Shown here: piece by piece, positions 4,615 through 25,151 of the stretch
Position numbering within the stretch: the stretch's first letter is position 1
How the letters are laid out: the number at the start of each line of letters is the position of its first letter
From: Actinobacteria bacterium Ga0077541
GTDB taxonomy: Bacteria; Actinomycetota; Thermoleophilia; Miltoncostaeales; Miltoncostaeaceae
DNA length: 44,936 nt
Assembly: GCA_001464995.1 (NCBI GenBank)
Contig: LNEQ01000236.1
Coordinates: 1-44,936 of the forward strand
Direction: 5' to 3'
Notes under the pieces: generated by a model
Told to the model about the DNA's origin: nothing
The model's input: the letters and a program-made list of their open reading frames with translations, nothing else
Database searches by the model: none
Program-made: the position numbers and the translations under genes

Positions 4615-6000
4615 GTGACAACGCCTCCGGGCGACCGTCCGACTCCGCGCCCGCCCTGGTCGCGGACCCAGCGACCCGTGCCCCGGCGCGTGCTGCGCCC
4701 TCTCCAGGAGTTCCTCCACCTCGAGGCGTCCGGCGGCCTGGTACTGCTGCTGGCGACCGCCCTGGCCCTCGTCTGGGCGAACGTCGCGGGCGCGTCGTAT
4801 CTGGACTTCTGGAGCACCGAGCTGACCGTCCAGCTCGGCGACTTCGTCGTGGTCGAGGATCTCCAGCACGTCGTCAACGACGGCCTGATGGCGATCTTCT
4901 TCCTGGTGGTCGGCCTCGAGGTCAAGCGCGAGCTCACCGTGGGCGAGCTGTCGACGCGCCAGGCGGCGCTGCTGCCGTTGTTCGCGGCGGTCGGCGGGAT
5001 GCTGCTGCCGGTGCTGATCTTCCTCCTGGTGATGGGCGGCGGCGACGGATCCCACGGATGGGGCATCCCGATGGCCACCGACGTCGCCTTCGCTCTCGGC
5101 GCGCTGGCCGCGGTCGGGTCGCGCGCGCCCGCCTCGCTGGTCGCGTTCCTCCTGGGCGTCGCCGTGATCGACGACATCGGCGCCATCCTGGTCGTGGCGG
5201 TCTACTACACCGACACGATCGCCCTGGCGTGGCTCGCCACCGCCCTGATCGGGCTGATCGCGATCGTCGCGCTGCAGAAGATCCAGGTGCGCTACATCGG
5301 GGTCTACGTCGTCCTCGGGCTCGTGGTCTGGTTCGCCACCTTCGAGTCGGGGGTCCACGCCACGATCGCGGGGGTGGCCCTGGGCCTCCTCACCCCGGTC
5401 CGGCCCTTCCAGGATCCGGCCACGGTCAGCGCCGAGGCGATCCGGATCGCCGAGGCCACCGACGACGAGCCCGACTCACCCGACGCCGACGCGGGCCACT
5501 GGCGGCGGCTGGCGTGGCTCTCGCGCGAGGCGGTCTCGCCGCTCGAGCGCGTCCAGCACAGCCTGCACCAGTGGTCGAGCTTCGTGGTGCTGCCGATCTT
5601 CGCCCTGGCCAACGCCGGCATCGCCCTCGACCGGGCCTCGTTCGAGGCGGCGGCCGACACCCCGGTCGCCCTGGCCGTCGCGCTCGGCCTGCTGATCGGC
5701 AAGACCGTCGGGCTCACGCTCGGCGCGGCGCTGGCGGTGGGGCTCGGGCTCAGCGTGCTGCCGGCGGGGGTGAGGTGGGCTCACGTGGTGGGCGTCGGCG
5801 CGCTCGCCGGCATCGGGTTCACGGTCTCGCTGTTCATCACCGGGCTCGCCTACGACGACCCCGACGTGGTCGCGGCGTCGAAGATCGGCGTCCTGGGAGG
5901 CTCGACGCTGGCCGCGATCCTCGGCATCGCCCTGCTGGTGATGATCGGCCGCCGCTCCGGACCCGCCGCTACTCCAGACGAGCTCCCTCCTGGTCCCTGA
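4615..6000 (+). CDS. nhaA: Na+/H+ antiporter NhaA
   Basis: 'DGLMAIFFLVVGLEVKREL', 'ATDVAFALGALAAVGSRAPASLVAFLLGVAVIDDIGAI' signatures. Confidence 0.95.
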   Translation: MTTPPGDRPTPRPPWSRTQRPVPRRVLRPLQEFLHLEASGGLVLLLATALALVWANVAGASYLDFWSTELTVQLGDFVVVEDLQHVVNDGLMAIFFLVVGLEVKRELTVGELSTRQAALLPLFAAVGGMLLPVLIFLLVMGGGDGSHGWGIPMATDVAFALGALAAVGSRAPASLVAFLLGVAVIDDIGAILVVAVYYTDTIALAWLATALIGLIAIVALQKIQVRYIGVYVVLGLVVWFATFESGVHATIAGVALGLLTPVRPFQDPATVSAEAIRIAEATDDEPDSPDADAGHWRRLAWLSREAVSPLERVQHSLHQWSSFVVLPIFALANAGIALDRASFEAAADTPVALAVALGLLIGKTVGLTLGAALAVGLGLSVLPAGVRWAHVVGVGALAGIGFTVSLFITGLAYDDPDVVAASKIGVLGGSTLAAILGIALLVMIGRRSGPAATPDELPPGP

Positions 6001-7135
6001 CCACCTGGAGGAAGCGCTCGTAGCTCGGCTTGGGCTCGAGCGTGATGTCGCGCAGCAGGCCGGCGGGCCAGTCGGCGTTGTCCTGGAGGTTGAACCACAC
6101 CACCGTCCGGATGCGGTCGGTGCGCAGCTGGGGCAGTGAGAAGATCTGGGTCAGGTACTCGGCCTGCTGGGCCTCGGTGACCTTCGTGTCGCGGAACCGC
6201 GTCGCCGCGGTCGTGTACCCGGCCTCGGTGATGTAGAGCGGGATCGCCGGCTCGGCGCGCCAGGCATCGAGCTCGTCGAGGACGCGCCCGATGCTGCTCC
6301 ACGACGGGACGACCTCGGTCTGGACGGTCGGGGCCGCGGCCGGGTAGACGTGCTGGGAGTAGGCGTCGAGCGGTATGTCGCGCTCACGCAGGCCCCGCAG
6401 CCACTCGATGGCACCGACGCCGGTCGGCGTGGTGCTGCTGCGCGGACCGCCGACGCCCACGATCACCTGCGCCTGCGCGTTGGCCCCCTTGATGGCCGGG
6501 TGGGCGGCGCGCACCAGGTCGGCGTAGACGTCGAGCCGTGCCTCGGCGCCCTCCTCGGCCGGCTGCAGGAAGCCCGACAGGTTCGGCTCGTTCCAGATCT
6601 CGTAGTGCCGGATCTCCGGCAGGGTGTCCCCTCCGGGGCTCACGAACGACCCGTTGTAGCGGGTGGCGACCGCGGCCATGAAGCGGCCGTAGTCGGCCGG
6701 CTCGGGGGCGAGGCGGTTGATCGGGCCCCCGATCGCGTCGACCGCCCCGCCGGACGACCACGGCGGGGTGCTGTACACGGAGAGGATCGGCGTGATGCCC
6801 CGGTCGGCCAGGCCGCGCATGATGGTGTCGGCGCGCGAGAAGTCGTAGGCCGGGTCGGCGGGGTCCTCCGGCGACTGCGGCGGCACGGGCCCCGGGGCCA
6901 CCGAGTTCCAGAACAGGTCGACGCGCGTGGTGGTGACGCCGGTCGCCTCGATCAGGTCGAGCCGGGCCGGGATCGTCTCGATCGCTTCGGTGGAGAGGTG
7001 GTCGTCCTGCACCGCTGCGACGGCACCGATCGGCGCGGTCGCGTCGCTGCCCGAGAGCATCACCGCGCCGACGACGGCCGCGACCACCGCCGCCACGGCC
7101 ACCAGACCGGCCACCACACGTCCTGTCGACCTCAC
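5969..7135 (-). CDS. Membrane-anchored glycoside-hydrolase-like (TIM-barrel, GH39/GH5-like) protein
   Basis: N-terminal hydrophobic signal/anchor; 'YEIWNEPNLSGFLQP' acid/base-type motif and 'LYITEAGYTT' nucleophile-type motif. Confidence 0.8.
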   Translation of the reverse strand: MRSTGRVVAGLVAVAAVVAAVVGAVMLSGSDATAPIGAVAAVQDDHLSTEAIETIPARLDLIEATGVTTTRVDLFWNSVAPGPVPPQSPEDPADPAYDFSRADTIMRGLADRGITPILSVYSTPPWSSGGAVDAIGGPINRLAPEPADYGRFMAAVATRYNGSFVSPGGDTLPEIRHYEIWNEPNLSGFLQPAEEGAEARLDVYADLVRAAHPAIKGANAQAQVIVGVGGPRSSTTPTGVGAIEWLRGLRERDIPLDAYSQHVYPAAAPTVQTEVVPSWSSIGRVLDELDAWRAEPAIPLYITEAGYTTAATRFRDTKVTEAQQAEYLTQIFSLPQLRTDRIRTVVWFNLQDNADWPAGLLRDITLEPKPSYERFLQVVRDQEGARLE

Positions 7136-7163
7136 CGCTGCTCCACTCCTCGGTTACGTGACA

Positions 7164-9137
7164 TCACTGGCCCGCCCGGGCGGCCGCCGGGGGCACGGAG
7201 CCCTCCCACGGCAGGCGCGCGGGATCGGGGTCGCCCGGCAGGCGGTACTCCCACGCGGGATCGCCCAGGGTGCCACCCGCCCAGCGATGGACGTCGGCGG
7301 TGAACCGCGCCAGATCGAGCGGCTCGTCGAGCACGCTCGGCGCCATCGGGTCGGCCGAGAACGCCAGCACCCGCCCCGCGCCGACCGGGCGCACGAACGC
7401 GGCCGGGGCGCCGTCGAGGAAGCGCGCCACGACGCTCGCGCCGGCCGGCACCCCGGCGAAGGCGCGCGGCCGCGCCGTATCGATCGGCAGGGTGAGGAGA
7501 TCGCCGGGGGCGCCGGCGCCGAGCGCGCCCGGCTGCACCTCGAGGACCGAGCCGCGGCGCGGCGGGCCGAGAGGCGCGCCGATGAGGGCCTCGCGGACCG
7601 TGGCGAGCGATGCACCCGACGGCGCGCGCGTGAAGGCGGCGGGGTCGGTGACGATCAGCGTCCCTCCGGCGCGGACCCAGTCGGCCACCTGCGCGGCGAA
7701 GGCCGCGTCGAGCGTGTCGCCCCGGGGCATCCAGAGGGTGCGGGCGGCGGCCAGGCGGGCGGGGGCGGCGCTGAGGCGAGTGTCTGCGTCGAAGCTGAAC
7801 GACGCACCCCCGAGCTCGCCGAGCAACGAGTAGGTCGTGTAGATCGCGTCGCCGCTCGTGCGGTAGCGCAGTCCCCCGGTGCGGTCCGGCTGGGCCTGGC
7901 CCTCACTCGCCGTGGCGTAGAGCACGAGCTGGGCGGGGTCGACCGGAGCAGCGGGGAGACGGGCCCCCCGCATGGAGGACGCGACGGCGAGCATCGCGTC
8001 GTAGAGGCGCCGGTTCGTGAAGCGGGGGTTGTCGGAGGCGAAGAAGCTGATGTCCGTGGCCCCGGCGCGGAGCGCCTGCGCGGTCCAGGTCCAGATGTCG
8101 CCGGGCACCGGCTGGTAGCGCGAGTAGTCGAACGCCTGCACCACGATCCTGACGCGCTTCCCGGTCAGGTCGGAGAGCAGCTTCGCGCCGAACCCGGGGT
8201 TGTAGCGCCCGCGGCCCGCGCGGGCGCGCTCGGGGTAGCTGACATAGGGATCGGCCTCGACGACGTCGGCGAAGCCCGCCAGGCGGGTGTAGTCCCACGG
8301 GATGAAGCCGTCGATGAAGCCGTAGTCGTTCGGGTTGACCACCGCGGCGGGGTCGAGCTTCCGGATCAGGCGGGCCTGCTCGGCCTTCATCGCGAAGAAG
8401 CGCTGACCCGAGTAGCGGCTCCAGGCGAGCCAGCGCAGGCGCTCGGCGACGCTGCCGGAGGGGCGCGCCGCGGGGTTCGGCAGAGTGCGCCCGGTCGCGC
8501 GGCGGAAGTCGGCGGCCAGGCGCCGCCCGAAGGGGGTCGTGCGCGCCGCGCCGCGCGGCAGGATCGTCACCGGCTCGTCGCTTCCGGTGTACGTGTTCAC
8601 GAAGGCGCGCCCGCGGACGGTCGGCACGATACGGCGGATCTCCCGCAGGGCCTCACGGCGGTAGCCGGGGTCGAGCAGCGAGAGGCGCCGCGTGTAGGCG
8701 CGCGGGTCGACCGTGGGGTCCGCCACCACCGCCGTGCCGCGTTGCAGGGCCCGGCGGGCGGCCCACACCTCGACGGCGACGTCCCAGCGCAGGCCGGTGG
8801 CGTCGAAGGCCGCCTGCAGCCGCTTGGGGGTCCTCCAGCCGACGGGCTCCTTCGGGCTGAGCGGCAGCGGCGGGAAGGGCAGGGCGCTCGGTCCGCTGAA
8901 CCAGAGCCCGTTCTCCCCCGCCTCGCGCAGGATGCCGTCGATCGTGCGGTACCAGCGCGCCGGCGGGATCAGCGGGCGGCGGCTGTCGGGATTCCAGCCG
9001 GGGAGCTCGTTCTGGTTGAGCTCGTGGCCCCAGGTGCTGACCGTCCCCGCCGGGCGGTCGGCGGCGAGGGCCGGCGACGCCGCGGCGGCGGCGGCGAGCG
9101 CGAGCGCCAGGGCGGCGATGGGAGAGCGGTAGGGCAC
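7164..9137 (-). CDS. Secreted beta-galactosidase/GH42-like protein with a C-terminal glutamine-amidotransferase-like domain
   Basis: Signal peptide 'MPYRSPIAALALALAAAAAASPALAA'; TIM-barrel-like 'WNPDSRRPLIPPARWYRTIDGILREAGENGLWFSGP'; 'WVRAGGTLIVTDPAAF' as in the GH42 trimerisation domain. Confidence 0.6.
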   Translation of the reverse strand: MPYRSPIAALALALAAAAAASPALAADRPAGTVSTWGHELNQNELPGWNPDSRRPLIPPARWYRTIDGILREAGENGLWFSGPSALPFPPLPLSPKEPVGWRTPKRLQAAFDATGLRWDVAVEVWAARRALQRGTAVVADPTVDPRAYTRRLSLLDPGYRREALREIRRIVPTVRGRAFVNTYTGSDEPVTILPRGAARTTPFGRRLAADFRRATGRTLPNPAARPSGSVAERLRWLAWSRYSGQRFFAMKAEQARLIRKLDPAAVVNPNDYGFIDGFIPWDYTRLAGFADVVEADPYVSYPERARAGRGRYNPGFGAKLLSDLTGKRVRIVVQAFDYSRYQPVPGDIWTWTAQALRAGATDISFFASDNPRFTNRRLYDAMLAVASSMRGARLPAAPVDPAQLVLYATASEGQAQPDRTGGLRYRTSGDAIYTTYSLLGELGGASFSFDADTRLSAAPARLAAARTLWMPRGDTLDAAFAAQVADWVRAGGTLIVTDPAAFTRAPSGASLATVREALIGAPLGPPRRGSVLEVQPGALGAGAPGDLLTLPIDTARPRAFAGVPAGASVVARFLDGAPAAFVRPVGAGRVLAFSADPMAPSVLDEPLDLARFTADVHRWAGGTLGDPAWEYRLPGDPDPARLPWEGSVPPAAARAGQ

Positions 9138-9945: not shown

Positions 9946-11453
9946 CTACCCGGTGCGGAAGCGCCCGACCAGCTCGCTCAGCGCCTGCGAGCGCATCGAC
10001 AGATCGGTGGCGGCGGCGGCGTTCTGGTCGGTTCCCGCAGCGGTCGAGCGCGTGGCCCCGCTGATCAGCTCGCTCGACTCGAGGGCGGCCGTCGAGTCGT
10101 CCGCCGCCTGCTGCATCACCCTCTCCAGGAGCTCCGCGTCGTGCCCGAGGCTCTCGGCGGCCGTCTTCACATCGACCGCGACCCCGACCGCGTCGCCGAG
10201 GTGGTGGTGGACCTGCTCGACCGCCTCGCGGACGCCGCCGACCGATGCGACAGCGGTGGCGACCCGCCCCGCTCCGGCGTCCATCGCCTCGACGGCGCGG
10301 GCGGTCTCCGCCTGCACCTCGGCGACCAGATCACCGATCGACTGGGCGGCGACATCGGCCTGGGCGGCGAGGTTCCCCACCTCGGTGGCCACCACCATGA
10401 ACCCCCGGCCGTGCTCGCCGGCACGCGCCCCCTCGACCGCCGCGTTCAGGGCCAGCAGGTTCGTCTGGGCGGCGATGGAGGAGATGGTCGTGACGATGCC
10501 TCGATCGCCTGGCCGCGCTCACGGAGGGCCTGCACGCGGGCGGTGCCCTCGCGCACGACCTCGGCGGCCGAGGCCATCGCCCCGGCCGCCTCGTCGAGGC
10601 TCTGACTGCCCGCCACGGCGGCGTCGCGGGCGGAGCCGAGCACCGACTGCGTCCGGTCCGCGCTGCGACCGACGCAGTCGAGACCGGTCGTGACGCGCCC
10701 GGCGGCCTCGACGGCCTTGGCCACGCGCTCGAGCCTGCGCTCGGCCTTCTCGTGCGTCGTGCGGCAGCTGGCGGCGATCTCGGCCATCGCGCCGGCGGTC
10801 TCGCCGGTGCGCGCGGCCATGTTGTCGGCGAGGTCGCTCACGGCCGCCGTGCTTGCGGCGCCCGCCTGGATCACCCTCTTCAGGCCCGGCACGACCTTGT
10901 TCAGCTCGAAGCCCATCTGGGCCAGCTCGTCCCGGCCGACACCGCTCACCGTCGCCGTGAGATCACCCTCGCTGACGGCCCGGGTGGTGGCGTTGAACTC
11001 GGCGATCGGTCGGCTGATGCGCCGGTCGTTCCACACGGCGAGCAGCCCGGCGGTGACGGCGCCCGCAGCCACGACGGCGGCGCCGACGGCCGGCGAGTCG
11101 GCGACCGCGGCCACGGCCGCCGAGGGGACCAGGGCGGCGGCGGCGAGGTTCGCCGCGTCGTCGTGGACGCGGCCCTCGCGCATCGCGTTCGTGTGGACGT
11201 GGGTGAAGCCGGTGGGCCCCATCAGCGCGATGTACTCGAGGCCCGGGGTCAGCTCCCGCCGGAAGATCCCGCCGAGCGTCACGAGTGCGGCCTCGGGGGG
11301 GCGGGTCGCGAGCTCCTTCTCACAGAGCGCGGCGAGGCGCGTGGCGAGGAGCATCGGGTCCGGCTGGCGACGGAAGGGCACGGGACGGGTCTCCGGGACG
11401 GTGCCGCCATACGGCGGAGGTCTCCCTGGGTTTCGTCCCGCGCCCATCCGCAC
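9946..11453 (-). pseudogene. Methyl-accepting chemotaxis-type receptor (HAMP plus signalling domain), split by a frameshift near 10500
   Basis: Two minus-strand ORFs (10446..11453 and 9946..10398) join into one MCP: HAMP-like 'RRISRPIAEFNATTRAVSEGDLTA', then after restoring one base '[51 protein letters not shown]'. Confidence 0.85.
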
Positions 11454-11477: not shown

Positions 11478-12617
11478 TCAGGCGGTGGCTCGATATGCCT
11501 CGATCAGGATCTCGGCGACCTCGGGGCGGGTGAACTCGACCGGCGGGATCTCGCCACGATCGAGCATCTCGCGCACCTTGGTGCCCGACAGGAAGACGCG
11601 CTGCTCCGGGGTCGAGGGCGAGGTCTTCGTCGTCGCCATCCCACCGGTCAGGTTGCACCAGAAGGAGTGCTCGAAGAACGTCGGCGTGATCGCCAGCTCC
11701 TCGCGCGTGATGTCGTAGGTGCCGTAGTAGTTGCCCACCCCGGCGTGGTCGCGGCCCACGATGAAGTGGGTGCAGCCGTAGTTCTGACGCAGGATCGCGT
11801 GCAGCACCGCCTCGCGCGGACCGGCGTAGCGCATCGCCGCCGGCAGCACGCCCAGCACGACCCGCTCCTTGGGGTAGTAGCCCTCGATCAGCACCTCGTA
11901 GCAGCGCATCCGCACGTCGGCGGGGATGTCGTCGCTCTTGGTCTCGCCCACGAGGGGGTGCAGGAAGAGCCCGTCGACCGTCTCGAGCGCGACCTTGGTG
12001 ATGTACTCGTGCGCCCGGTGGATCGGGTTGCGGGTCTGGAAGCCGACCACGGTCTTCCAGCCGCGGGCGTCGAACTCGGCGCGCGAGGCGCGGGGGTCGA
12101 GCAGGAAGGGCTGCGCGCCCGGGTCGATCGGCAGGCGGGAGGCGACGCGCACGGGGCCCGCGAGGCAGGTGGTGCCGTGCGAGTACAACGACGCGACGCC
12201 CGGGTGGGCGTCCTCCTCGGTGCCGTAGACCAGCTTCGCCTCACGGCGCTGGTCGGTCTCGTAGCGGTCGGTGATGCCGAGCACGCCGAGGAAGCGGCCG
12301 GAGCCGTCCACCAGCTCGACCTCGTCGGCCGAGCCGATCGCCGCCAGCTCGTCGGGCTGCACGGCGAGCGTCACCGGCACCGACCAGGCGAGGCCGTTCG
12401 GAAGGCGCATGCCGGTGATCACCGACTCGTAGGTCGCCTTGTCCATGAAGCCGTCGAGCGGCGACATGGCGCCGACGGCGATCAGGTCGAGGTCGGCCTG
12501 CTGGCGGGCCGACAGGGTCACGCGGGGGCGGTTGCCCCCCTCGTCCAGCGAGGGGTCGAGACGGTCGACCAGGACGCCGCCGTGAGGGGTGATGGGACCA
12601 GGGGTGGTGGGGGTCAA
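11478..12617 (-). CDS. sat: Sulfate adenylyltransferase
   Basis: '[23 protein letters not shown]', '[18 protein letters not shown]', '[11 protein letters not shown]'; TTG start at 12617 overlaps the upstream stop (TTGA). Confidence 0.95.
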
Positions 12618-13429
12618 ATGCCCGCTCCGTCCACGTTGCCGAGCGCTGTCGAGTTCAGGAGTGTGTCGGCGCGGAGGCCGAGGCGGAGGGTTTCCAGCGG
12701 TATCACCTCGTCGTGTGGGATGTTCCCAAGGTTCACATTGGGACCGAACTTGCGGATGAACCAGACCTGCTGGGCCTTCTGGGGGGCCTCGAAGAGCAGG
12801 CGGTTCGGGTCGATGGCGTGCACGATCTCGTCGATCAGGCCCATCCGGACCTCGCCGTCGCCGCGGAAGATGCCGGCGGTGCCGGTCTCGCGGGCCTCGG
12901 TGATGACCTTCCAGGCGCCCGCCCGCAGCTCGGCCTCGATCAGCTCGACCCAGCGGTAGGGGGCGATGACGGTCTGCAGGTCCTTCGAGCCCACCTCGCT
13001 GAGCACCGTGAACTCCTGCGCGAGGGCGGCGATGTGCTCGAGCTTGACCTCGTGGGGGACGGTGATCGTCCCGTCCGAGACCTCGACGTGGCGCAGGCCG
13101 AGCTCGTGCACCCAGCGGCGCCAGTCGTCGAGCTTCTGCTGGGCGAAGCAGGTCTCCCAGAAGGTCCCGCCCAGCACCACCGGGATGCCGGCGCTCTCGT
13201 AGAGCGCGAGCTTGTCGCGGAGGTTGCGGCTGACGTAGGACGTGCCCCAGCCGAGCTTGACGATGTCGATGAAGTCGCCGCACGACTCGAGCATGCCCTC
13301 GACCTGGGACAGGGACAGGCCCTTGTCCATGACGTGGCTGATGCCCACCTGGCGCGGCTTGGGCGGGCGGCCGGGCAGCGAGAGGAACGCCGCGCCGGCG
13401 GCCTGGGGGATGGTGGTGTCGGTGCTCAT
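12614..13429 (-). CDS. comA: Phosphosulfolactate synthase family protein (ComA-like)
   Basis: '[38 protein letters not shown]', '[12 protein letters not shown]', '[14 protein letters not shown]', '[27 protein letters not shown]' characteristic of the ComA family. Confidence 0.9.
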
Positions 13430-14652
13430 CGGGCCGCCTCCGCGGCGCTCGCGCCCGCGATGCGCCCGTAGACGACGGTGTCGAGCAACGAGTTCCCCAT
13501 CAGGCGGTTCGCGCCGTGGACGCCGCCGGAGATCTCGCCGGCGGCGAAGACGCCCGGCAGCGTGGTGGCGGCGTTCTCGTCGATCGCGAGGCCTCCGTTG
13601 CGGTAGTGGAGCACGGGGTAGACGAGCACGCGCTCGGTGGTGATGTCCATGCCGGCCTTCAGGTAGCGGTTGTGGACGTAGGCGAGGCGCTCGGCCGTGA
13701 AGCCGGAGCCGTTCTCGCGGTCGATCGCGGTGGTGTCGAGCCAGACGCCGGCGCTGCCGTCGGGCGCCTCGGCGCCCCGGCCCGCCTGGACGGTGTCGAT
13801 GATCGCCTGGGCGACCACGTCGCGCGGGGCGAGCTCGTCGACGAAGCGCTCGCCGTCGGCGTCGTGCAGCGTCGCGCCGTAGGCGCGGGTGGTCTCGGGC
13901 AGGGCATAGCCGGCAAGGCTCTCGGGCCAGACCGAACCGGTCGGGTGCCGCTGCCACGAGTCGAGCTCGCGGCCCTCGGCGCCGAGATCGAGAGCCAGGC
14001 GCAGCACCTCGGGCGTGGCGTCGGGATGGTTGGTGCTGCCGATCCCGAGCGCGTCGGCCTCGCCGCGCAGCCCGCCTCCGGCCGCCAGGACCACGGCGCG
14101 GGCGTGCACGGTGCGCCGGGTGCCGTTGCCGCCCGGCGCCAGCGTCGCCCGCCAGCCGTCGCCCTCGGGCGCGAGGTCGACGAGCGTCGTCGACTCCCAC
14201 ACCTCGGCTCCCGAGGCCCGGACCGCACCGCGCAGCGCCTTGACCATCTCGGCCCCGGTGCGCTCCCCGGCCTGCAGCAGGCGCTTGCGGCTGGCGCCCC
14301 CGCAGCGCAGGAGGCGCAGGCGGCCCTCGTCGCGGGTGAAGGAGACGCCGAGCGCCGAGAGCCAGGCGATCGCCTCGGGCCCGCCGTCGGCGAGCCGGCG
14401 CACCAGCTCCGGGCGCGCCGTGCGGTGCCCGGCGGCGAAGGTGTCCTCGAAGTGGGACTCGGTCGAATCGTCGTCCCCCACGGCGGCCTGGATGCCGCCC
14501 TGCGCGCGCCCGGTGTTGCCCGCACCGAGGGCGGACTTCGTCGTGACGAGCACACGGGCCCCGGCGCCGGCGGCGCTGACGGCGGCCGACATGCCCGCCC
14601 CGCCCGATCCGACGACGAGCACGTCGGCACGCGCATCCGAAGGGCTCGACAC
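13426..14652 (-). CDS. FAD-dependent oxidoreductase of the fumarate reductase/succinate dehydrogenase flavoprotein/L-aspartate oxidase family, short form lacking the C-terminal helical domain
   Basis: '[27 protein letters not shown]', '[13 protein letters not shown]', '[17 protein letters not shown]', '[34 protein letters not shown]'; ATGA overlap with comA. Confidence 0.9.
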
Positions 14653-14698
14653 GCGACGATGCTACCCGACCGGCACCGATGCTTCCAATAAGGACCCG

Positions 14699-15619
14699 TT
14701 ATGACGGGGAGGGGGCTGCGCCCATGTCGCCGAGCTCGGCGCCGGCGAACTCCATGAAGGCCGTGGTCACCCTCTTGGGCGTGCGCCCGGCGTGGCGTAC
14801 GGCGAAGAAGTGCCGCTCCAGGCCGGGGCCCTCCAGCTTCAGGGCGACCAGGCTGCCCTCGGCGACCTCCCGCTCCACGGCGAGGCTCGAGATCACCGTG
14901 ATGCCGTACCCGTCGAGCACCGCCGCCTTCACGGACTGCTGCAGGCCGAGCTCCATCGCGACGTGCAGGTCGCGGTCGCGCAGCCCCTCCTCGCGCATGG
15001 CGGCCTCCACGACCGAACGCACGCCCGAGCCCTCCTGCTGCAGCAGCATCGGCTCGGCCACGAGCTCCTCGAGCGTCACCGACTGCCGCGAGGCGAGGGA
15101 GTGCCCGGGCGGCACGATCGCCACCAGCTCGTCCCGCACGAAGGGCTCGAAGACGAGCCCCCGCTGCGGCCGGGCCGCGCCCACGACGCCGAGCTCCAGT
15201 TCGTCGTCGAGCACGCGCTCGCAGACCGTCTGGGTGTCGCTGACCATCAGGCTCACACGGACGTCGGGGTGGGCGGCGTGGAACGAGCCGAGGAGCCGCG
15301 GCAGCAGCAGCTCGCCGGGGCCGGTGGACGAGCCGAGCACGAGCGGCCCGGCGATCCTGGTGCCGATCTCCCCCATCTCGCGCTCGAGCTCGGCCTCCAG
15401 GCCGATCATGCGCTTGGCGTACCGGTACACCACCTCGCCCGCCTCGGTGACCGTGACCCTGCGGCCGCTGCGATCGAGCAGCCGGTGCCCGAGCCGCTCC
15501 TCGAGGGCGCGTATCTGGAACGAGACCGCCGGCTGCGAGACCTCGAGCTCCTCCGCCGCCTGGGAGAAGGAGCCCTTGTCCACGACCGTACGGAGGGTGA
15601 GCAGCTGACGCAGATCCAC
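14699..15619 (-). CDS. LysR-family transcriptional regulator
   Basis: N-terminal wHTH 'LLTLRTVVDKGSFSQAAEELEVSQPAVSFQIRALEERLGHRLLDRSGRRVTVTEAGE'. Confidence 0.95.
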   Translation of the reverse strand: MDLRQLLTLRTVVDKGSFSQAAEELEVSQPAVSFQIRALEERLGHRLLDRSGRRVTVTEAGEVVYRYAKRMIGLEAELEREMGEIGTRIAGPLVLGSSTGPGELLLPRLLGSFHAAHPDVRVSLMVSDTQTVCERVLDDELELGVVGAARPQRGLVFEPFVRDELVAIVPPGHSLASRQSVTLEELVAEPMLLQQEGSGVRSVVEAAMREEGLRDRDLHVAMELGLQQSVKAAVLDGYGITVISSLAVEREVAEGSLVALKLEGPGLERHFFAVRHAGRTPKRVTTAFMEFAGAELGDMGAAPSPS

Positions 15620-20858: not shown

Positions 20859-21059
20859 CTAGCGGTTGCTGAAGTGGTGCTCCCCGCTGTCGCACCAGAA
20901 CACGAGGCAGCCGCCCTCGACGTCGCGGGCGACGCACGGACACTCGCCGCCGTGGTCCGGGCAGGGGCGCGCGACGCGCGACAGCAGGCCCCACTCGGCG
21001 ACGGGCAGGGTTCCGACGGGTGGCCGGGGCGCGATCTCGGTGCGGGTGATGACGGTCAT
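20859..21059 (-). CDS. Small Cys/His-rich protein (66 aa), possible metal binder
   Basis: 'PCPDHGGECPCVARDVEGGCLVFWCDSGEHHF'; 4-nt overlap with the upstream dehydratase gene. Confidence 0.6.
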   Translation of the reverse strand: MTVITRTEIAPRPPVGTLPVAEWGLLSRVARPCPDHGGECPCVARDVEGGCLVFWCDSGEHHFSNR

Positions 21060-22975
21060 TGCAGCTCCCCGTGGCGTGTGGAGGGTCGAGCCCCCTGGCT
21101 TTCGCCACCGTCGCCCATGACCCTTCCGACTCGGAGGATCTCCCAGAGGGCGGCCGCCACGGGCTCAGGGCGACCGTCGGCGACGAGGCGGTTGAGCTCG
21201 ACCATGCTGTGACGCAGCCGGTCGGGATCGATGGCGGGCCTGGTGGCGCGCATGATCTTGCCATACCTCGTCGGCTTCACCTCCTCATCCACGTTGAAGA
21301 GTTCCTCATGGAGCTTCTCGCCCGGGCGGATGCCGACCACCTCGATCGCGATGTCCACGCCGGGCTCGTGGCCGGAGAGCTCGATCATGCGGCGGGCGAG
21401 ATCGAGGATCCGGACCGGCTCCCCCATGTTGAGCACGAAGATGTCGCCGCCCTCGGCGATGCCGGTCGCCTCGATCACGAGCTGCACGGCCTCGGGGATC
21501 GTCATGAAGAAGCGGGTCATGTCGGCGTGCGTCACGGTCACCGGGCCGCCGCGCTCGATCTGCTGCTGGAAGATGGGCAGCACCGAACCGGAGCTGCCGA
21601 GGACGTTCCCGAAGCGGACGGCGGCGAACCGGGTGGCCGAGGTGGTGCCGTGCGACTCCACCACCCGCTCGGCGAGGGCCTTGGAGCCGCCCATGACCGT
21701 CTTGGGCTCGACGGCCTTGTCGGTGGAGACCAGGCAGAAGCGGTCCACGCCGTGGCGCTCGGCGAGGTCGGCGAGCACCTGGGTGCCGAGCGCGTTGTTG
21801 GCGACGGCCTGGAGCGGGTTGAGCTCCATCATCGGAACGTGCTTGTAGGCCGCCGCGTGGAAGACGATCTCCGGGCGCTCGGCCTCGAACACGCGCTCCA
21901 TCGAGCCCACGTCCTTGCAGTCGGCGATCACCGGCACGAGCAGGCCGGCGTGGCCGCGCTCGCGCAGCTCCATGTCGATCTCGAAGAGGTTGTTCTCGGC
22001 GTGGTCCACCATCACCAGCCGCCGCGCGCCGATGGCGGCCACCTGGCGGCAGAGCTCCCGCCCGATCGACCCGCCCGCCCCGGTCACCATCACGGCGCGG
22101 CCGTTCAGATAGCGCGCGACCCGCGCGAAGTCGCTCTCCACCGGCGCGCGCCCGAGGACGTCCTCGACCCGCACCTCGCGCAGGAGGCTCACCGTGACGT
22201 CGCCGGTGATCAGCTCCGGCAGGCCCGGCAGCGTGGTGCAGGGGACGCCCGCCCTGCGGCACGCCTCGACGATCTCCTGGCGCACCAGGCCCGGCGCCGA
22301 CGGCATCGCGATGATCACCTCGTCGACGTGGACCTCGCGCAGCACGCGCGGCAGGTCGGCGCGGGTGCCGCGCACGCGCGTCCCCTGCACGCGCAGGCGG
22401 CGCTTGCGCGGGTCGTCGTCGATCAGCCCGACCGGCGTGTAGCCGAGCTCGCGGTTGCGCTTCATCTCGCGCAGCAGCGTGTTGCCCGCGTCGCCGGCGC
22501 CGCAGATCAGCACCTCGCGGCCGCTCGACACCAGCTCGGAGCGCGGCGGGCGCTCGATGACGCTGCGCACCGCGAAGCGGGCGCCGCCGATGAACGTGAG
22601 GGTGAGGACCAGGTCGAACACGAGCACACCGCGCGGCACCGCGACGAGGTCGCCGGGCCGCCAGTTGGAGAGGATCGCGGCGACCAGCAGGCTCGAGACG
22701 GCTGCCGCCAGGACGATCGCCTGCAGGTCGCGGAGGCTCGTGAAGCGCCACCACTTGGTGTAGAAGCGCATCGCGACGAAGGTCGCGACCTTGATGGCGA
22801 CCACGATCAGGACCGTCCCGGCGAAGAGTCGCTCGTACCGCCCGGGGACGTTTCCGTCGAACCGGAAGTAGAAGGCCAGCCAGTAGGCGGCCGCGACGAG
22901 CCCCGTGTCGACCGCGATCTGAGCACCGCGGTGGGCGAACGCCCGGGGGCTCCAGTTGAGCGGAGCGCTCCTCAC
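21056..22975 (-). CDS. Membrane UDP-sugar 4,6-dehydratase (CapD/PglF/WbpM/FlaA1 family)
   Basis: Four N-terminal TMs; 'VMVTGAGGSIGRELCRQVA', 'FHAAAYKHVPMMELNPLQAVANN', 'STDKAVEPKTVMGGSKALAE'. Confidence 0.95.
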   Translation of the reverse strand: MRSAPLNWSPRAFAHRGAQIAVDTGLVAAAYWLAFYFRFDGNVPGRYERLFAGTVLIVVAIKVATFVAMRFYTKWWRFTSLRDLQAIVLAAAVSSLLVAAILSNWRPGDLVAVPRGVLVFDLVLTLTFIGGARFAVRSVIERPPRSELVSSGREVLICGAGDAGNTLLREMKRNRELGYTPVGLIDDDPRKRRLRVQGTRVRGTRADLPRVLREVHVDEVIIAMPSAPGLVRQEIVEACRRAGVPCTTLPGLPELITGDVTVSLLREVRVEDVLGRAPVESDFARVARYLNGRAVMVTGAGGSIGRELCRQVAAIGARRLVMVDHAENNLFEIDMELRERGHAGLLVPVIADCKDVGSMERVFEAERPEIVFHAAAYKHVPMMELNPLQAVANNALGTQVLADLAERHGVDRFCLVSTDKAVEPKTVMGGSKALAERVVESHGTTSATRFAAVRFGNVLGSSGSVLPIFQQQIERGGPVTVTHADMTRFFMTIPEAVQLVIEATGIAEGGDIFVLNMGEPVRILDLARRMIELSGHEPGVDIAIEVVGIRPGEKLHEELFNVDEEVKPTRYGKIMRATRPAIDPDRLRHSMVELNRLVADGRPEPVAAALWEILRVGRVMGDGGESQGARPSTRHGELQ

Positions 22976-23991
22976 AGGTGGGGCAGTGTAGACCGTGCGG
23001 CGCCGAGAATCAGGTCGAGGAGCACCTCGGGGTCGCGCAACGGGGGCGGGGCGTCGCGCCGGCGGCGCTCCAGGACGACGTCCGCGGGGTCCTCGAGGCG
23101 CCGGAGACGGCCCTCCGCGATCAGGCTGCGATCCACCGCCCCGAGGCGCGCGGCGAAGGGCGTGTAGGCGGGGACGCCCAGCGCGGCGGCCTCGCGGTTC
23201 ATCGTGCCGCCGGCGCTCACCACGAGGTCGGAGGCGGCCACGAGCGACGGCCCGTCGATGGGGCGCCCGGGCACGATCGCGGCGCCGCCGACGAGCGCGG
23301 CGCGCTGCTCGTCGGTGCGCGGCAGCACCACGGTCTGCACCTCCGGAGCCGCCAGCAGGCGCTCGAGCGTGGCCGCGAACAGGTCGGTCGAGGCCCCCCG
23401 GTGGTAGAGCGTCACCTCCGGCGGGGGGCGCATCACGGCGATCAGCCGCGTGGGGTCGAGCCCGAGCTCGCCGAGCACGCCGTCGTCCAGGGCGTGGTCG
23501 GCCAGGTAGTACTCCTCCTTCAGCCCCGGGTAGCGCACGAGCTTCGGAGGGCGCATCCCGTAGGGGGCGAGCGCCTCCTCGGGGATCGCCGACGGCACCA
23601 GGACCCGGGTGGCGAGGCGCCCGTTCCAGTGGTGCATGACCGTCGCGTACTCGTAGTCGAACATCGTCACCTGGGGCGTGCCCGCGGCGCGCGCGGCGAG
23701 CGGCTGGTCGGTGCTGCCGTGGGCCACGGCGAGGTCGAACCGCTCACGGCGGGCGAACCGCACCAGCGCGGCCGAGCGGTCGGCCATCGCCCGCGCCTTG
23801 CCCGCGCGCGATCCGCCCCCGTGGGCCCCGACGCTGACGTGCTCGATGCCGAAGCGCTCCAGGAGCCCGATCGTCTGGGCGAACTCGCGCGCGGTCACGG
23901 TCACCTCGCAGCCGCGCGCCCGCAGGCGCGCGATCAGGGGCCGGAAGATCACCACGTGTGGTGAGTTGGTGATGTCGATCCAGACGCGCAC
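22972..23991 (-). CDS. DUF354-family glycosyltransferase/epimerase-like protein
   Basis: 'VWIDITNSPHVVIFRPLIARLRARGCEVTVTAREFAQTIGLLERFGI'; GTG start at 23991; 4-nt overlap with the downstream CDS. Confidence 0.85.
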   Translation of the reverse strand: MRVWIDITNSPHVVIFRPLIARLRARGCEVTVTAREFAQTIGLLERFGIEHVSVGAHGGGSRAGKARAMADRSAALVRFARRERFDLAVAHGSTDQPLAARAAGTPQVTMFDYEYATVMHHWNGRLATRVLVPSAIPEEALAPYGMRPPKLVRYPGLKEEYYLADHALDDGVLGELGLDPTRLIAVMRPPPEVTLYHRGASTDLFAATLERLLAAPEVQTVVLPRTDEQRAALVGGAAIVPGRPIDGPSLVAASDLVVSAGGTMNREAAALGVPAYTPFAARLGAVDRSLIAEGRLRRLEDPADVVLERRRRDAPPPLRDPEVLLDLILGAARSTLPHL

Positions 23992-24044
23992 GGGGACCAG
24001 TGTAGGGCGGGCCGTGGGCGACCCCCTCGCGGGCGAGCCCGCGC

Positions 24045-25151
24045 CTAGGTGCGGTCGAGCACCGCGGTCGCGGCCCGGACCACCGTCGCGACGTCCCCGC
24101 GCGTGAGGCCCGGGTGCATCGGCAGCGCCAGCGCCGTGCGGGCGCACTCCTCGGCCACGGGCAGGTCGCCCTCCGTGTACCCGAGGTGGGCGAAGACCGG
24201 CTGGAGGTGCATCGGGATGCCGTAGTACACGGCGCTCGCGACATCCGCCTGCTTCAGCGCCGCCTGGATGTCGGCGCGACGCGGGTGGCGGGCCATGTAG
24301 AGGTGGTAGATGTGCGTGGCCCCCGGCGCGACGCCCGGCAGCGTCATCAGCTCGCCGAGCCCCTCCTCCGCGTACCACCCGGCGGCCTCGGCGCGGCGGG
24401 CGTTCCAGCCGTCGAGGTGGGGGTAGAAGACCCGGATGATGGCGGCCTGGAGGTCGTCGAGGCGCGAGTTGTAGCCCACCTCCTCGAACACGACCTTGTC
24501 CTTCGATCCGTGGAAGCGCAGCCGGCGGACGCGCTCGGCCAGCTCCTCGTCCCGGCAGACCACCATGCCGCCGTCGCCCATGCCCGGGAAGTTCTTGGTC
24601 GGGAAGAAGCTGAAGGTCGCAGCGTCGCCGAAGGTGGCGATCTCCCCCTCGGGGGCGCGGGCGCCGAAGGCCTGGGCCGAGTCCTCGACCACCACGAGGC
24701 CGTGCTCGCGGGCGATCGCCATCAACTCGGCCATCGGGGCGGGGTGCCCGAAGATGTGCACCGGCAGGATCGCCCGGGTGGCGGGCCCGATGCGTCCGCG
24801 CACCGCATCGGGATCGAGGCAGTAGGTGACGGGATCGATGTCGCAGAAGACCGGCGTCGCGCCGACACGCGCGATGGCCTCAGCCGTGGCGTAGAAGGTG
24901 TACGGGGTCGTGATGACCTCGTCGCCCGGCCCGATGTCGAGTGCGTGGAGCGCGATCACGAGGGCGTCGGTGCCGTTGGCGACGCCCACGCAGGGCCGGC
25001 CGTCGAGCCGCTCGGAGACCGACGCCTCGAGCGCCCTGCCCTCCGGGCCCAGGATGAACCGCCCGCCGTCGAGCACGCCTGCGATGGCGGCGTCGATCTC
25101 GGCGCGAAGGGGCCCGTACTGGGCCTGGATGTCCATGAGAGGCACGGCCAT
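24045..25151 (-). CDS. DegT/DnrJ/EryC1/StrS family PLP aminotransferase
   Basis: 'DGGRFILGPEGRALEA', 'GVANGTDALVIALHALDIGPGDEVITTPYTFYATAEAI', 'FFPTKNFPGMGDGG'. Confidence 0.95.
   Translation of the reverse strand: MAVPLMDIQAQYGPLRAEIDAAIAGVLDGGRFILGPEGRALEASVSERLDGRPCVGVANGTDALVIALHALDIGPGDEVITTPYTFYATAEAIARVGATPVFCDIDPVTYCLDPDAVRGRIGPATRAILPVHIFGHPAPMAELMAIAREHGLVVVEDSAQAFGARAPEGEIATFGDAATFSFFPTKNFPGMGDGGMVVCRDEELAERVRRLRFHGSKDKVVFEEVGYNSRLDDLQAAIIRVFYPHLDGWNARRAEAAGWYAEEGLGELMTLPGVAPGATHIYHLYMARHPRRADIQAALKQADVASAVYYGIPMHLQPVFAHLGYTEGDLPVAEECARTALALPMHPGLTRGDVATVVRAATAVLDRT

Follow-up and report, generated by a model that had tools for sequence, protein, structure and literature searches.

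We examined a stretch of 44,936 nucleotides (hereafter, the window) from contig LNEQ01000236.1 of Actinobacteria bacterium Ga0077541 (assembly GCA_001464995.1), which belongs to the family Miltoncostaeaceae of the class Thermoleophilia. The window carries an operon that encodes a LysR-family regulator, a fumarate-reductase-like flavoprotein with a flavin adenine dinucleotide (FAD) domain, the phosphosulfolactate synthase ComA and the ATP sulfurylase Sat. The operon is real and strongly conserved, and represents a variant of sulfonate biosynthesis that has apparently not been described before. We consider it likely, with a probability of roughly 85%, that it is a dedicated module for the biosynthesis of three-carbon (C3) sulfonates, in which the flavoprotein acts on a sulfonate derived from ComA. 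An earlier sequence-only reading of the window had proposed a fumarate-reductase-like enzyme in a sulfonate pathway, with a substrate that is most likely the sulfonate analogue of a dicarboxylate such as malate, fumarate or succinate, and this proposal is supported by the conserved neighbourhood of the flavoprotein gene and by its position in a clade outside NadB. The arrangement described in that reading, with four same-strand genes, two four-nucleotide overlaps and a gap of 46 nucleotides between the LysR and flavoprotein genes, is borne out by the sequence. All four genes lie on the minus strand:

14699-15619, minus strand: LysR-family regulator, 306 residues (PF00126/PF03466), the presumed regulator of the operon.
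13426-14652, minus strand: flavoprotein, 408 residues, GTG start; FAD_binding_2, fumarate-reductase-like.
13426-13429, minus strand: ATGA overlap in the sequence, holding the flavoprotein stop and the ComA start.
12614-13429, minus strand: ComA, predicted (2R)-phospho-3-sulfolactate synthase, 271 residues (PF02679).
12614-12617, minus strand: TTGA overlap in the sequence, holding the ComA stop and the Sat start.
11478-12617, minus strand: Sat, ATP sulfurylase, 379 residues, TTG start (PF01747/PF14306).

The pairing of the flavoprotein with ComA is not due to chance. ComA was searched for in 101 related genomes and detected in 54 of them. The flavoprotein was searched for with a profile built from 15 flavoproteins, to which intact members scored at least 630 bits and all other flavoproteins at most 246 bits; in one genome (G016) the gene is split across contigs, and its halves score 340-363 bits. 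In the window's own family, Miltoncostaeaceae (f1), and a sister family of Gaiellales relatives (f3), both proteins were found in 41 genomes (33 and 8, respectively) and neither in 12 (9 and 3), some of these negative genomes being incomplete, while none of the 53 genomes had only one of the two. A wider scan of approximately 85,000 species genomes yielded the 80 best flavoprotein loci, which are the basis of the locus counts given here; where their records are named, the names point to Miltoncostaeales, Gaiellales and other Thermoleophilia. ComA adjoins the flavoprotein in 71 of the 80 loci, that is, in 71 of the 71 that were assessable; in the other nine, the contig ends less than 1 kb downstream or, for L188, which belongs to a lineage with ComA upstream, 65 bases upstream. 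The pair is kept in three gene orders (flavoprotein-ComA, flavoprotein-FumA-FumB-ComA and ComA-flavoprotein, where FumA and FumB are the alpha and beta parts of a class I fumarase), and therefore shared ancestry of one block does not by itself explain it. A LysR gene precedes the flavoprotein gene in nearly all loci. Since Sat lies within the operon in only 7 of the 33 ComA-positive genomes of the window's family, the universal core consists of LysR, flavoprotein and ComA. One further genome (G352) had a flavoprotein match of 378 bits, and family f19 had flavoprotein-like matches of approximately 590 residues, none beside ComA; the sole f19 example inspected (L271) carries GKAHT, the histidyl motif known from SdhA-type proteins.

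The window proteins were assigned to families by Pfam and NCBIfam models, and both sets agree on LysR, ComA and Sat. ComA matches PF02679 over its full length (E=8.4e-88; 294 bits against a cut-off of 25.2) and aligns end to end with the solved synthases of B. subtilis (1u83) and M. jannaschii (1qwg). It scores below the equivalog cut-off of TIGR03849 (249.5 against 280 bits), a model of the archaeal subtype. Sat matches PF01747 (E=4.7e-88) and passes the cut-offs of both NF003166 (489 against 387 bits) and TIGR00339 (378 against 323 bits). The regulator passes the cut-off of the NCBIfam model "selenium metabolism-associated LysR" (260 against 250 bits).

The flavoprotein is less conventional. 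Residues 10-389 match PF00890 (FAD_binding_2; E=1.6e-63), the Succ_DH_flav_C domain is missing (no match to PF02910), and the score is far under every NadB, SdhA and FrdA cut-off (258 against 453 bits for TIGR00551; 215 against 567 for TIGR01812). In a maximum-likelihood tree of 40 proteins, among them SdhA/FrdA and NadB, the 26 members of the flavoprotein clade were grouped with a support of 100/100 and separated from both of these families; their stem is 1.29 changes per site long, and the program warned of long branches in some of the outgroup rows. On these scores and this tree, the window flavoprotein fits none of the tested families and is the founding member of a ComA-linked clade. Lack of a conserved neighbourhood in relatives, or clustering with L-aspartate oxidases, had been named beforehand as the outcomes that would speak against the sulfonate proposal; the neighbourhood is conserved wherever it was assessable, and the flavoprotein stands in its own clade.

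The active site of fumarate reductase is largely kept in this clade. FrdA residues H232, H355, R390 and R287, which bind fumarate and deliver the proton (PMC5773532), correspond to H236, H349, R383 and R277 in the window flavoprotein; E245 and R248 of FrdA are also kept, as E253 and R256, and all six residues are invariant in 26 of 26 clade members. Two positions depart from this pattern. The position that is F116 in FrdA and E121 in NadB is mostly Cys in the clade (C117 in the window protein) and otherwise Ala or Thr, and the substrate-twisting T244 of FrdA is Pro in all 26 members (P252 in the window protein). Glu121, presumably a substrate residue of NadB, is present in all eight NadB proteins compared. 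Since the histidine that binds FAD covalently in FrdA (H44) is replaced by Asn46, FAD is expected to be non-covalent in the window flavoprotein. Its predicted structure has a mean predicted local distance difference test score of 86.8 and a template modelling (TM) score of 0.89 to E. coli FrdA (1kf6). Judged by alignment and structure prediction, the clade is fumarate-reductase-like in architecture, with two specificity positions changed clade-wide. It resembles FrdA and the soluble fumarate reductases in its fold and its catalytic His, Arg and Glu residues, whereas it differs from FrdA in having no C-terminal helical domain, no covalent-FAD histidine and no iron-sulfur or membrane partners (none is encoded in the operon), and at the F116 and T244 positions. 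With NadB it shares the catalytic Arg and His and the expected non-covalent FAD; it differs from NadB in the replacement of E121, in its length (408 residues, against 540 in E. coli), in its separate clade and in having no nearby nadA or nadC.

Next, we considered the supply of sulfite. Sat, CysC and CysH lead from sulfate to sulfite, and ComA joins sulfite to phosphoenolpyruvate (PEP), giving (2R)-phospho-3-sulfolactate. The typical operon of Gaiellales encodes the flavoprotein, class I fumarase alpha (PF05681) and beta (PF05683), ComA, CysH, CysC, Sat and TauE; Gaiellales loci that have no Sat carry instead neighbouring genes for approximately 300 and 425 residues of CysD/CysN-type sequence. 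Sat was found in 20 of the flavoprotein loci, CysD with CysN in 11, and all of them together in none. The same held across whole genomes of the window's family, where a true CysN is missing from the 7 Sat-bearing, ComA-positive genomes, and almost all of the rest have CysN but not Sat. Sat and CysDN are mutually exclusive. As the Gaiellales operons bear CysH, CysC and either Sat or CysDN, sulfite supply is part of the pathway. The window genome has one copy of Sat and no true CysN; this Sat is the sole ATP sulfurylase found there and may thus also serve cysteine synthesis, and a gene of the sulfite reductase family is present elsewhere in the genome. The sequence-only reading had stated that both CysH and ComB are missing. 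This stands for the operon with respect to CysH and for the whole family with respect to ComB, but CysH and CysC are adjacent on another contig of the window genome (G000:C47, L056 7298-8621). The further suggestion that the flavoprotein occupies the place of CysH and ComB is not supported, given this second contig and the Gaiellales operons in which flavoprotein, CysH and CysC occur together.

Herein, we describe the pathway that the operon may encode. Sat, with the CysC and CysH encoded elsewhere in the window genome, would convert sulfate to sulfite, from which ComA, with PEP, would form (2R)-phospho-3-sulfolactate. Loss of phosphate and water would then yield (E)-3-sulfoacrylate, in Gaiellales via the class I fumarase-like pair of the operon and in the window's family via an enzyme other than class I fumarase. 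The flavoprotein, presumably soluble and with non-covalent FAD, would reduce sulfoacrylate to 3-sulfopropionate, the sulfonate counterpart of the step from fumarate to succinate, and in Gaiellales the TauE/SafE permease would probably export the product. The stereochemistry is compatible with this scheme. (2R)-sulfolactate shares its spatial arrangement with L-malate, sulfur merely reversing the Cahn-Ingold-Prelog naming priority; dehydration of the fumarase type should thus lead to (E)-3-sulfoacrylate, the analogue of fumarate, and fumarase chemistry followed by fumarate reductase chemistry fits. TauE has been named as a probable 3-sulfopropionate exporter (PMC11489063), and the reverse route, from 3-sulfopropionate through sulfoacrylate to sulfolactate, is cited there, at second hand from a thesis, for the homotaurine degrader Roseovarius. 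Gene content, conservation, co-occurrence, the identity of the clade, and its kept and changed residues are observed here, whereas we infer that sulfoacrylate is reduced, in which direction the flux runs and what is produced. That the flavoprotein reduces sulfoacrylate to 3-sulfopropionate has a chance somewhat short of even. More tentative still is the complete scheme, in which Thermoleophilia would run a full sulfonate mirror of the reductive branch of the tricarboxylic acid (TCA) cycle (malate, fumarate, succinate), leading from sulfate and PEP through sulfolactate and sulfoacrylate to exported 3-sulfopropionate.

Further genes accompany ComA outside the window's family. The ComA-linked FumA proteins stand in a clade of their own (support 100/100), distinct from the housekeeping class I fumarases within the same class; in family f2, both types occur together in three genomes. 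The three cluster cysteines (in CQDTG, CPP and QCxA) are conserved in the FumA alignment. A histidine phosphatase gene follows ComA in families f2 and f7 (L058 7252-7881, L043 8767-9366, L050 7438-7983) and is a candidate for a phosphosulfolactate phosphatase other than ComB. Often, an iron-containing alcohol dehydrogenase gene lies between LysR and the flavoprotein in Gaiellales. In two loci (L046 4685-7297 and L177), a lone FumB stands between the flavoprotein and ComA and FumA is missing from the locus and, for genome G098, from the genome search too. Family f7 has a divergent ComA with an ATP-grasp gene immediately after it (L054 6947-8732, PylC-like; L270 6990-8745), the product of which could ligate a sulfonate to an amine.

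Several observations weigh against the proposed sequence of steps. Class I fumarase was found in no genome searched of the window's family. The flavoprotein occurs without FumA also in the ComA-flavoprotein lineage, in L177 (FumB only) and in L180 (neither), while the f2 operon consists of CysH, TauE, FumA, FumB, ComA and the histidine phosphatase and has no flavoprotein. Flavoprotein and FumAB are thus found independently, and need not act in sequence. Moreover, the ComA-linked FumA is similar to an archaeal fumarate hydratase of solved structure (7xky), and may therefore have a true fumarate/malate activity. ComB (PF04029) was detected in no genome searched of the window's family, though it is present in the sister family, even where ComA is missing, and the search of the window's family turned up no phosphatase for phosphosulfolactate. 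Near the flavoprotein there is no gene for an electron donor subunit. A dedicated lyase of the aspartase/fumarase superfamily was also sought in the window's family and rejected as a candidate, because the counts of Lyase_1 genes are similar in ComA-positive and ComA-negative genomes.

The strongest competitor, though we regard it as unlikely, keeps the module but has the flavoprotein oxidise a compound derived from ComA (sulfolactate to sulfopyruvate, or cysteate to its imine), with the fumarase-like pair forming a parallel branch. The independent occurrence of flavoprotein and FumAB would suit such a scheme, as would the fact that the related NadB oxidises the carboxylate analogue of cysteate; yet the flavoprotein clade has Cys, Ala or Thr in place of the Glu121 found in 8 of 8 NadB proteins, no cysteate-forming enzyme was seen near the operon, and the enzymes known from the FrdA/SdhA group work on C-C bonds. 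It is a little less probable that the sulfonate, tailored by the flavoprotein, is built into or decorates an extracellular polysaccharide and is not an exported end product. Genes for DegT, DUF354, CapD, FlgD-like and O-antigen-ligase-like proteins adjoin the operons in several lineages, most genomes in the window's family have a GH42-like gene next in line, and the ATP-grasp ligase lies beside some ComA genes of family f7. However, the glycan genes are outside the overlapping operon and may reflect old synteny, and the TauE of the Gaiellales operons suggests that a free small anion is exported.

The other explanations are far weaker. It is improbable that the flavoprotein, with or without the fumarase, is an ordinary enzyme of C4-dicarboxylates that shares an operon with sulfur genes by chance: its catalytic residues are those of fumarate reductase and a fumarate hydratase of solved structure is close to the ComA-linked FumA, but in all 53 genomes flavoprotein and ComA are either both kept or both lost, SdhA and Lyase_1 (FumC-type) are encoded separately in the genomes, and the F116 and T244 pocket positions are changed clade-wide. 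Even less credit is due to a variant of bacterial coenzyme M (CoM) biosynthesis. ComA starts that pathway and sulfoacrylate-type chemistry occurs in it. ComA with two Lyase_1 enzymes was found in three other actinobacterial families (L264 2826-7339, L266 8134-13562, L267 8094-13513), in what are probable bacterial CoM clusters; however, such a lyase pair is missing beside ComA at the window operon, and the ComA proteins of those three clusters branch separately from the flavoprotein-linked ComA. Finally, the flavoprotein shares the broad FAD_binding_2 superfamily with AprA, the adenylylsulfate (APS) reductase subunit, and with L-aspartate oxidase, and Sat is adjacent, but either identity is refuted at the level of sequence. 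NadB is rejected by the separate clade, the profile scores and the replaced E121. AprA, which the sequence-only reading had offered as a less likely alternative, did not appear among PDB matches with E<=1e-20 or in the best 25 NCBIfam models, no direct alignment with AprA being made; its partner AprB is missing from the operon, and CysH is present in the window genome.

Other features of the surroundings were recorded. The operon is flanked in the window (5969-9137 and 21056-25151) by genes for a GH42-like protein of 657 residues, a second glycosidase-like protein, a CapD-type dehydratase, DUF354 and a DegT aminotransferase, and these glycan genes recur beside the operon in several families. 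At 9946-11453, a HAMP-containing chemoreceptor-like protein appears as two open reading frames (335 and 150 residues), in place of which a genome of the same genus (G002, L034) has one protein of 526 residues; the split is possibly a frameshift or an assembly error. Four public metagenome-assembled genome records titled "Bifidobacterium breve" (L124, L125, L129, L194) bear Thermoleophilia operons, and their organism names look wrong.

In a literature search largely without subscription papers, we found no paper linking ComA with a flavoprotein, fumarase or fumarate reductase, or sulfolactate with Thermoleophilia. Recent work on C3 sulfonates, which are important links in the sulfur cycle, has mostly dealt with their breakdown. 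If the module is what we propose, it would be a biosynthetic C3-sulfonate route in largely uncultured actinobacteria of soil and freshwater; an unnamed clade of flavoproteins and a clade of fumarases would thereby acquire a function, and marker genes would be at hand for predicting producers of 3-sulfopropionate. The full mirror of the TCA branch, if true, would be a means of making 3-sulfopropionate biosynthetically and perhaps also an electron sink inside the cell, and its enzymes would include a new fumarate-reductase-like subfamily. As 3-sulfopropionate is a respiratory electron acceptor for Bilophila (PMC11489063), its producers would be relevant to communities that respire sulfonates.

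Of the systems described so far, the nearest is the yitCD / yitBA-yisZ group of B. subtilis, inferred to make sulfolactate, which amounts to approximately 5% of spore dry weight (PMC517825). There too, a ComA-type synthase is grouped with Sat, CysC and CysH, the Gaiellales form being the closest, whereas the operon described here lacks ComB next to ComA (in the window's family, ComB is missing altogether) and adds the flavoprotein, to which the Gaiellales operon further adds the class I fumarase pair and TauE. The bacterial CoM pathway of Xanthobacter (xcb genes), as cited in PMC11507031 and PMC12068725, likewise starts with ComA and proceeds by elimination from phosphosulfolactate, the phosphate being eliminated by an enzyme of the aspartase/fumarase superfamily (JBC 2018 293:5236, as cited in PMC11507031). 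It differs in employing aspartase/fumarase-superfamily lyases and D-cysteine-desulfhydrase-like enzymes, none of which is encoded near the window operon. The homotaurine and 3-sulfopropionate catabolism of Roseovarius nubinhibens shares the proposed compounds 3-sulfopropionate, sulfoacrylate and sulfolactate, as cited in PMC11489063. That route runs in the catabolic direction, unlike the window operon, for which sulfate activation and ComA imply biosynthesis.

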